This document shows, piece after piece, positions 32,150 to 34,173 of a stretch of 64,000 nt of DNA. The translations under genes were made by a program, and so were the position numbers. Every line of letters starts with the position of its first letter. Within the stretch, counting starts at the first letter, position 1. The notes beneath the pieces were generated by a model. The model was not told where the DNA came from, did not search any database, and saw nothing but the letters and a program-made list of their open reading frames with translations. This DNA is from Azospirillaceae bacterium (GTDB lineage: Bacteria > Pseudomonadota > Alphaproteobacteria > Azospirillales > Azospirillaceae). Location: positions 1-64,000 of the forward strand of contig DASQNC010000016.1 of the NCBI GenBank assembly GCA_035645145.1, given 5' to 3'.

Positions 32150-32182
32150 AAAGGGCCGGTCCAGAAACTGGACCGGCCCTTT
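32150..32182. terminator. Bidirectional terminator after doxX-like gene
   Basis: Perfect 15-bp inverted repeat (32150-32164 with 32168-32182), loop aaa, with aaa/ttt at the stem base. It serves the DoxX-like gene and the small minus-strand gene at 32202-32345. Confidence 0.7.
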
Positions 32183-32201: not shown

Positions 32202-32345
32202 TCAGCTGATGTCGTGCTTGGCGTCGACCTTCTTGACCTTCGACCCTTCCTTCTTGCCCTTGCGGTCATCCTGGGCAACGGCGGTCATGGCCTTGTTCAT
32301 TTCGGCGCCGAGGCGCTCTTTCCAATAGCTGCTGAACCCGTGCAC
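32202..32345 (-). CDS. Unknown 47-residue protein
   Basis: A short frame starting with GTG at 32345 and preceded by a ggagacagg ribosome site: VHGFSSYWKERLGAEMNKAM, then a very basic lysine-rich tail ending DAKHDIS. The N-terminal half could be an amphipathic helix and the tail is disordered and charged. Not recognised. The terminator just after its stop codon and the good ribosome site support it as a gene. Confidence 0.5.
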   Translation of the reverse strand: MHGFSSYWKERLGAEMNKAMTAVAQDDRKGKKEGSKVKKVDAKHDIS

Positions 32346-32466: not shown

Positions 32467-34173
32467 TTAGACGGTGATGCTGGTACCGGCGTAGGCAACC
32501 AGTTCCAGCTTGCCGTTGGTCAGGCGAAGACCGGTCTGACCCACGACATTCTCGGACCCGGTCGGTCCTGTGGCCTGGTTCAGACGCACGGAGGTGAAGG
32601 AAGTGCCGTTGTATGTCAGGGCGAACAGGCGGTTGTAGTCCGGAATCTTGCCGGTGGAGGCGGCGCTGAGGTTCAGCACTCCGTCGCTTTCGGCGGCCAG
32701 ATCATCCAGCAGGTCCTGAACATTCATGCCAGCGCCCGAGGCCGCATCGAATCCGAACAGCTCGTCGTACTGCAGGGTGCCGTCGCCATTGAACATGGTT
32801 CCGTCACCATTCCTGTCGTAAGCCAGCATGACCTGAGGCCGGCTGAACAGGCCCGCCAAGTTACCTGCCACAGTCATGGCATCATTCTGGGCCTGGGTTG
32901 GATTCGTGGCGCCGGTGGTGTTGATTTCCGACCCCATCGCCGGGCGCACGTTCAGGAACACGGCCCCGCCGTTGGTGTCCGTCGCGTCACTCGTCATCTT
33001 GAGAACGGCCCCCAGCGCATTATCGTCTGGGAACAGGTTCCTGAAGTCGGTAGTCGTCTGGGACATTGGAGTTTGCGAGGCCGCCGCCATCTGCCCGCTG
33101 AAGTCAAGCCCCGTCCCCCCGGCATCAGGCAAGTTCACATCGAACCCCCGCTGGGTATAGACGGTGACCTCCAGCTTGCCCGTGGACGAAAGCTGCAGCG
33201 CGGTCTGCGCCGCCGTGTACTCCGTATATCCGCTGGCCCCAACCGAGGTGGTCGCAACCGAGGACTGGTTCAGGCGGACGGACGTGCCATCCGACCGCAG
33301 CACCATCAAGCGATTGCCGACATCGCCCAATTCATCCAGCTCCACACGGTTGCCGGCGGACTGGAGCAGACTGCCCAGGCTGCGCCCGGCGCTGGCCACG
33401 TAGATATCGTTCAGCGACGGCCCCGTCTTGCCAGCGGAGTCGAACCCGAACAGTTCCTGTTCACCATTGATGGAACCGTCGTTGTTCAGGTCGTACCCGA
33501 TCAACCCCTGCCCCTGACCGAACCGGTCGGTGATCTCCTTGGCCTGGGCCGTAACCTGCCGCTCGTAGACGTCGTAGTTGTCGTCGGTGCGACCTGCGAT
33601 ATCGGTGTACGGGTTGGCAGCGCGCTCCGAGCCGGTGCCGGCCCGGATGTTCACAAACAGGGCGCCACCGTTGCCGCTTTCCGGCACCGTGCTGGGACCG
33701 CTGGTCTTGGCCAGCACCTGGTCCAGCTTCGCCTGCGGATCCGGCGTGGAACCGAAGGACCACAGACTGCGGTAGGCGCGGCGCGTGTCCTCGCTGGCAT
33801 CGGCCGAGCGCGATTCCAGGCGCCCCGTGAAGTCGAGCGCCGCTGTCGTCGACCCAGTCGAGCCCGGCGCATTCGACGACCAGGAGCCGGACCGGTACGA
33901 GCCGGACGTCTGCCCGCCACTGGACAGGATGAGTCCATTCGGAGAGGAACTGCCGCTGGACGAGCCGCGGTAGGTCTTCTTCTGGTCTTCGCTCAGACGC
34001 AACCACGCCTGCTCGCGAGCGATTGCGGTGATACCCGGATTGCTCAGGAAGCTTGAGGGGGGCGGATCGGTGTAGGTGCTCTTCTGCTCCTTGTTGAGCC
34101 GCTCCCACATCAACTCGCGCACCGTCTGCGTTGCGGTCGAGTAGAAATTCGACGGAATCGATGTGATCGACAT
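32467..34173 (-). CDS. Cysteine-free repeat protein with calcium-binding-type loops, unknown
   Basis: 568 residues; family not recognised. Architecture: (1) residues ~5-75 hold two short helical repeats, each with W-x-RL-xx-(E/D)QK-x-TY; (2) a serine/glycine-rich linker (~76-115); (3) two long repeats (~115-350 and ~355-568), each beginning LDF(T/S)G, with a GGA(L/V)F(V/L)N(I/V)R block, an aspartate-rich loop (DLNNDGSINGEQELFGFD or DRNGDGTMFNGDG plus YDELFGFD), an SVRLNQ block and a closing L-x-L-xx-(T/G)GKLE(V/L)xxY. The loops resemble EF-hand or dockerin calcium sites. There is no cysteine and no Sec signal peptide. Cysteine-free, repetitive, calcium-loop proteins are often secreted without Sec, so an extracellular or surface role is plausible but inferred. 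Confidence 0.85.
   Translation of the reverse strand: MSITSIPSNFYSTATQTVRELMWERLNKEQKSTYTDPPPSSFLSNPGITAIAREQAWLRLSEDQKKTYRGSSSGSSSPNGLILSSGGQTSGSYRSGSWSSNAPGSTGSTTAALDFTGRLESRSADASEDTRRAYRSLWSFGSTPDPQAKLDQVLAKTSGPSTVPESGNGGALFVNIRAGTGSERAANPYTDIAGRTDDNYDVYERQVTAQAKEITDRFGQGQGLIGYDLNNDGSINGEQELFGFDSAGKTGPSLNDIYVASAGRSLGSLLQSAGNRVELDELGDVGNRLMVLRSDGTSVRLNQSSVATTSVGASGYTEYTAAQTALQLSSTGKLEVTVYTQRGFDVNLPDAGGTGLDFSGQMAAASQTPMSQTTTDFRNLFPDDNALGAVLKMTSDATDTNGGAVFLNVRPAMGSEINTTGATNPTQAQNDAMTVAGNLAGLFSRPQVMLAYDRNGDGTMFNGDGTLQYDELFGFDAASGAGMNVQDLLDDLAAESDGVLNLSAASTGKIPDYNRLFALTYNGTSFTSVRLNQATGPTGSENVVGQTGLRLTNGKLELVAYAGTSITV

Follow-up and report, generated by a model that had tools for sequence, protein, structure and literature searches.

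Tandem repeats with calcium-type loops in a cysteine-free Azospirillaceae protein may be distant relatives of the self-processing module of RTX proteins

The closest described counterpart of the protein analysed here is the self-processing module (SPM) found in FrpC and other RTX proteins. As described in PMC7078468, four Ca2+ sites drive folding of the module out of an unfolded chain. The site D462-E474, an EF-like loop, ends in the ligand E474, which is also the first residue of a tetrapeptide E-L-F-G; two further residues of this tetrapeptide, L475 and G477, line the port that surrounds the bond to be cut. The SPM is described there as restricted to a subset of RTX proteins, and the carriers studied are type I secreted RTX proteins.

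The whole analysed stretch, called here the window, comprises 64,000 nucleotides of a contig from an Azospirillaceae bacterium. It contains on the minus strand a gene at 32467-34173 (ATG at 34173, stop ending at 32467), for which the original prediction gave the correct coordinates and which is single-copy in its own 3.89-Mb genome. The encoded protein of 568 aa was expected to be cysteine-free and is so; it also has no histidine, its pI is 4.55, and its STNGD fraction (0.454) exceeds that of every other gene call of 200 aa or more in the window (44 calls in all, made by a simple GC3 method). The related proteins are similar in this respect (pI 4.3-4.6, STNGD 0.44-0.47). Cysteine is absent from all ten proteins of the taxonomic family, and one relative from outside it (L042) has a single cysteine by sequence. 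From the cysteine rate of the window, the expected chance of finding none in 568 residues is 0.6%; since ten of the 44 gene calls are likewise devoid of cysteine, its absence is not rare by itself.

The protein had been called unrecognised, and indeed no Pfam, NCBIfam or PHROG family reached its cut-off: the NCBIfam search gave one chance match (E 0.94), the PHROGs search none, and a single-sequence search of the PDB was equally empty. A confident match to a known cytoplasmic family was looked for and none was found. We found no published description of the family in the open PMC papers, to which the literature searches were limited. This is a real family, unnamed in any library searched. Several other identities were ruled out, namely an RNA element (no Rfam match), a phage protein (no PHROG match), plasmid-borne relatives (no match) and relatives with a viral fold (no match at E<=0.001).

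The protein begins with two copies of a helical W/LT module of about 35 residues (PSxF...R..MWxRL...QKxTY). Module 1 covers residues 1-36 (34066-34173, minus strand) and module 2 residues 37-70 (33964-34065, minus strand), and both match the module profile A5 (E 1.8e-14 and, at 33967-34068, 8.2e-16), which was itself partly built from these two modules. Aligned with each other they score 61, and the best of 1000 shuffles reaches only 35, which substantiates the short N-terminal repeats proposed at the outset. Above noise, the profile matches only the proteins of this family and one divergent gene neighbouring the relative in genome G033. That gene (L015:7664-9232, plus strand), which is divergent from the relative, has two copies of the N-terminal module ahead of an STG-rich stretch, and also a His/Gly-rich part.

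A Ser/Gly/Thr-rich linker (residues 71-112; 33838-33963, minus strand), recognised by its sequence and its low pLDDT in the full-length model, leads to the two long repeats. Repeat R1 (residues 113-349; 33127-33837, minus strand) is supported by BLASTP, model, structural comparison, profile and hhalign, and repeat R2 (residues 356-568; 32470-33108, minus strand) by BLASTP and the shuffle test. The repeats, of about 215-237 residues, are 33% identical in a BLASTP alignment of 236 columns (E 3e-21), and their local score of 213 was reached in none of 1000 shuffles (mean 40, maximum 82), so that the long duplication, too, is as it had been predicted. In the core alignment the invariant positions of R1 are F61, F106, D116, N118, G121, E128-L-F-G131, R176, L180, S186 and G220. 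The full-length AF2 model is poor (pLDDT 51); a model of R1 built from six sequences reached pLDDT 72.4 and pTM 0.74.

Each repeat carries one aspartate-rich loop followed directly by LFGFD. In R1 the EF-like loop DLNNDGSINGEQE comprises 13 residues (228-240; 33454-33492, minus strand), and in R2 it is a longer variant of 19 residues (453-471; 32761-32817, minus strand). All 12 proteins compared have the 13-residue spacing followed by LFG, as in the SPM loop D462-E474 followed by L475-F-G477. The strict pattern of loop plus ELFG occurs once when the window is read in all six frames (116,145 residues), in this gene. The view that the repeated FGFD is distinctive is supported in part, as ELFG is common to the SPM.

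The original prediction also likened the loops to EF-hand or dockerin sites, and this holds for their calcium type only. The D-x-N-x-D-G loop is the same as that of the EF-hand and dockerin families (PF13202, PF00036, PF00404), and ligands and spacing match the Ca2+ site D462-E474 of the FrpC SPM. However, Pfam gave only sub-threshold EF-hand matches on the loops (14.8, 13.2 and 10.2 bits; cut-offs about 25), with the curated PF13202 and PF00036 models at 14.8 and 13.2 bits against cut-offs of 25.9 and 25.4. The dockerin duplication is missing, and the canonical EF-hand loop has 12 residues, unlike the R1 loop with its 13 residues plus LFG. An ordinary EF-hand or dockerin was ruled out because the scores for all three Pfam families fall below their curated cut-offs, and calcium binding by the putative loop sites is supported at the level of sequence.

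A profile of the family searched against all PDB chain sequences gave two matches at E<=10, both to the SPM of FrpC (6sjx and 6sjw, E 0.0091 and 0.0094). Many EF-hand chains are deposited in the PDB. No ordinary EF-hand chain appeared among the matches at E<=10, and the search thus acts as its own built-in control. With hhalign, the core aligned to four SPM sequences with probability 94.3 and E 1e-7, over 41 columns only; the loop is where the two sequence methods coincide, and the remainder of the domain is unaligned by sequence. Foldseek with the R1 model found nothing in the PDB at E<=0.001, and the SPM was not among the 50 matches listed, which were unrelated and weak. The SPM fold consists of two perpendicular beta-sheets in which the N and C strands lie next to each other. 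In a structural second look with VIA, the best of 997 chains for the R1 model was again 6sjx (Z 3.7, rmsd 4.2, 102 aligned residues, 21% identity; runner-up at Z 2.6), where a Z below 8 may reflect merely a common arrangement and middling values are frequent.

One can suggest from these scores, and from an hhalign alignment restricted to 41 columns, that the repeats are unrelated to the SPM and that an EF-hand-like or dockerin-like loop arose independently in a new fold. We regard this as unlikely, given that only the SPM, among all PDB chains, matches the profile despite the abundance of EF-hand chains, that the structural comparison picks the same entry, and that the loop is of 13 residues plus LFG rather than of the canonical 12. 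Distant relationship to the Ca2+-dependent SPM of FrpC and similar RTX proteins is the best explanation for the repeats, a reading that is supported but weak.

The FrpC/ApxIVA SPM (6sjw, 6sjx) is thus the best match by profile and by structure, with the same EF-like loop bearing D-x-N-x-[DN]-G ligands and passing directly into LFG, and Ca2+-dependence would be expected of the present family as well. The differences are nevertheless considerable. The Asp-Pro that forms the scissile bond directly before strand 1 of the SPM is absent from the family sequences compared; the residues at this place are NGG in both window repeats and in the relatives from G052 and G033, RG in G054, DS in Skermanella and KE in another alphaproteobacterial family (f122). 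No conserved second loop corresponding to D499-D511 or D521-E532 of the SPM was seen after ELFG on reading the alignments; isolated D/G-rich stretches in single relatives (L019, G001) might still be such loops. The window protein is, moreover, a short tandem pair with its own N-terminal module, and GGxGxDxUx nonapeptide repeats were found in none of the 12 proteins, by which an RTX protein was ruled out.

Short proteins with an SPM do exist in other Proteobacteria (L048/L107, L096, L101 and L099). They are of about 378-386 aa, show no evident RTX repeats and carry the SPM in their C-terminal part; unlike in the present family, their SPM still starts, as judged by eye, with Asp-Pro-Leu and has the EF loops that follow, and no N-terminal W/LT module was seen in them. 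In three genomes (L105, L106 and L107) the surroundings of a stand-alone SPM protein, about 380 aa long, include secA and argJ (gene names by eye) and, directly adjoining it, another protein of about 370-390 aa; no RTX repeats are evident.

Since the scissile Asp-Pro and the two downstream EF-like loops were not found, we call the repeats SPM-like rather than SPM. The absence of Asp-Pro at its place, together with the failure to find the second and third loops, suggests that the module is probably silent in cutting, a Ca2+-locked scaffold and not a clip-and-link enzyme.

A conserved [N/D]-P dipeptide is present elsewhere than at the SPM site, between the first strand and a long helix. It is N187-P188 in R1 (33610-33615, minus strand), where proline occupies all nine rows of alignment A10, and N424-P425 in R2 (32899-32904, minus strand; alignment A10 and composition shuffles); in Skermanella and in the G202 and G305 relatives it is Asp-Pro. 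It was found in seven of the eight segments checked, the exception being G001, which is not in A10. Its occurrence in six lineages has an uncorrected chance product of 1.3e-4 by composition shuffles, for a motif picked after it had been seen. Clip-and-link activity might persist with a moved scissile bond, Ca2+ bound in the loop triggering cleavage at [N/D]-P by side-chain attack, and the reactive ends so formed tethering the protein covalently to the cell surface or a flagellum, but we consider this highly improbable; a helix-capping role for the dipeptide is the simpler reading.

The gene is present in 10 of the 82 genomes of the taxonomic family, which also make up the entire order in the collection used. 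The carriers are both genomes of its own genus, G001, G054, a single genome (G033) of the 45 in genus g3, and all five of genus g13, two of which are named Skermanella, a genus placed in Azospirillaceae by the NCBI lineage. At E<=1e-4, 7 of 385 genomes matched in the class sample; in the phylum sample 9 of 398 did, two of them (L100 and L103) without an ORF that could be read. Beyond the taxonomic family, G202 and G305 of f122 (L043, L042) were the only genomes seen to have proteins resembling this one; where the other class and phylum matches were read, they proved to be SPM proteins or RTX-like proteins of great length. A scan of genome contigs with the single protein gave 144 pattern matches and none was confirmed. 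In the relative from the same genus (G052) the C terminus is extended by a part that by eye resembles an Ig-like domain and has no Pfam match. A second G052 gene (L013:7318-7740, minus strand), cut by the contig end, encodes a GKLE-like end of the core and an Ig-like-looking tail, and this genome therefore seems to hold a tandem pair. About 1.3 kb past the intact G202 gene lies a partial second copy (L053:6479-6871, plus strand).

We give roughly an even chance to the explanation that we find best, namely that the gene encodes a stand-alone, calcium-folded and probably extracellular structural or adhesive protein composed of two tandem SPM-like domains, a doubled N-terminal module and a flexible linker. 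By analogy with the SPM, the chain would stay mostly unfolded while in the cytosol, where Ca2+ is low, and leave the cell without a Sec signal. Outside, Ca2+ would bind the 13-residue EF-like loop through D1, N3, D5 and E13, as its sequence suggests, the last ligand starting ELFG; as in the SPM, this binding would lock the beta-strands round the ELFG corner and fold the domain. Of all parts, the N-terminal module, always frontmost and present in a second gene of one relative, seems the likeliest to target or anchor the protein. Both the Ca2+-driven folding outside the cell and the structural or adhesive role are inferred. Against this explanation stand the weak and local SPM match (E 0.009, Z 3.7, 41 columns, nothing by Foldseek), the poor full-length model, the two downstream calcium sites that are not evident, and the failure to see a secretion gene beside the gene or RTX nonapeptides in the proteins.

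The strongest 12-residue mean starting in the first 30 residues is only 0.28 on the Kyte-Doolittle scale, and so no signal peptide is visible, as had been claimed; the corresponding maximum is below 1.0 in 11 of the 12 proteins and 1.66 in that of G305. Together with the acidic, STNGD-rich and cysteine-free composition, the Ig-like-looking tail in G052 and the flagellar neighbourhood in G054, this low hydropathy makes a non-Sec-exported surface protein or appendage component plausible, while the other neighbourhoods, which are non-flagellar, and the negative promoter comparison with flagellins (both below) are neutral or speak against it.

The lack of a visible signal peptide is equally what one would see in a cytoplasmic or envelope calcium buffer or sensor that is never exported. 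The solitary gene, with no secretion gene seen beside it, is compatible with this, as are the stand-alone SPM proteins by secA, which place SPM modules outside RTX giants. We consider it improbable: SPM-type folding requires Ca2+ above the cytosolic supply (PMC7078468), the composition appears typical of secreted proteins, and cysteine is consistently missing, although this last point is tempered by the cysteine-free gene calls of the window.

If the protein is exported, two routes may be considered. The original proposal was to look for a type I system elsewhere in the genome, and three HlyD-type adaptors over cut-off were found there, together with FlaF and five Flagellin_N matches, which makes both the type I and the flagellar route possible. 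Secretion through one of the genome's HlyD/TolC systems in trans would agree with the route of the SPM carriers studied (PMC7078468) and with an acidic, cysteine-free protein. Nevertheless, this route seems somewhat unlikely to us, as RTX repeats are wanting in all 12 proteins, no T1SS gene was noticed by eye in those neighbourhoods of relatives that were read, and the C termini are unconserved; the C-terminal strand looks intradomain rather than a free signal, a strand at the same place ending R1 internally.

The second route is the flagellum, for which the N-terminal module would be a flagellar type III signal and the protein a flagellin-associated calcium protein that decorates or regulates the filament. 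The relative in G054 (MAG Rhodospirillaceae bin98; L014:7071-8063, minus strand) has as same-strand neighbours a FlaG-like gene (E 0.0042, below cut-off) on one side and, on the other, genes for FlaF (5e-25) and flagellin (Flagellin_N, 1.5e-24). Flagellin is present in all nine other carrier genomes of the taxonomic family and in the own genome; there, three of the flagellin genes seem to stand alone as well, and the solitary setting of the window gene is thus not unusual. The absence of cysteine and the low N-terminal hydropathy also fit, and the G001 and G202/G305 relatives have an insert that we take, by eye, to resemble Flagellin_IN. This domain was not detected by Pfam in these three proteins, however, and neither Flagellin_N/C nor any other flagellar Pfam domain was found in the proteins of the window, G052, G054, G001, G202 and G305. 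Of the neighbourhoods read (the window, G052, G054, G033, G001, the g13 loci L017 and L019-L021, and G202/G305), only that of G054 is flagellar by eye, and no type I system was seen adjoining the gene in the others. One flagellar neighbourhood among about seven independent ones has, by our rough estimate, a chance of about 1 in 10, and 72 of the 82 family genomes lack the gene.

Promoters were also compared. A conserved sigma54-like site, GGCAC-N5-TTGC, lies upstream of all five g13 (Skermanella) relatives (L017-L021), but at none of 18 Skermanella flagellins and at one of the 27 flagellins scanned among the relatives, a set left from 36 rows after removal of six without a locus and three short G033 fragments (L124, L130, L134). 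The same five genes have a sigma70-like site further upstream and the conserved leader GCAGAACG, and because of this sigma70-like site the sigma54 reading is only tentative. One flagellin of the own genome (contig C36, L086) has upstream TTGGCACACGAATTGCTT, a sigma54-like promoter. Co-regulation with flagellins is not supported by this comparison of putative promoters, and flagellar export as a whole likewise strikes us as somewhat unlikely.

The gene had been described as standing alone, and its neighbours are unrelated to it; a possible 47-aa Lys-rich ORF (VHGFSSYW...KHDIS; 32202-32345, minus strand), with a GTG start and an SD-like GGAGACAGG, nevertheless follows downstream on the same strand. 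No relatives of it were found in the loci fetched. Past this ORF, at about 32150-32182, is a perfect 12-bp hairpin; the terminator scan reported none by its rule.

If the reading of a calcium-folded protein with SPM-like repeats is true, the tandem, apparently non-cutting and RTX-free proteins of Azospirillaceae would represent the use of a calcium-locked fold as a plain building block, and the stand-alone SPM proteins found elsewhere broaden the range of the module. The SPM also underlies the NeissLock tool for covalent coupling, and non-cutting distant relatives that still fold would make it easier to tell Ca2+-driven folding and catalysis apart.
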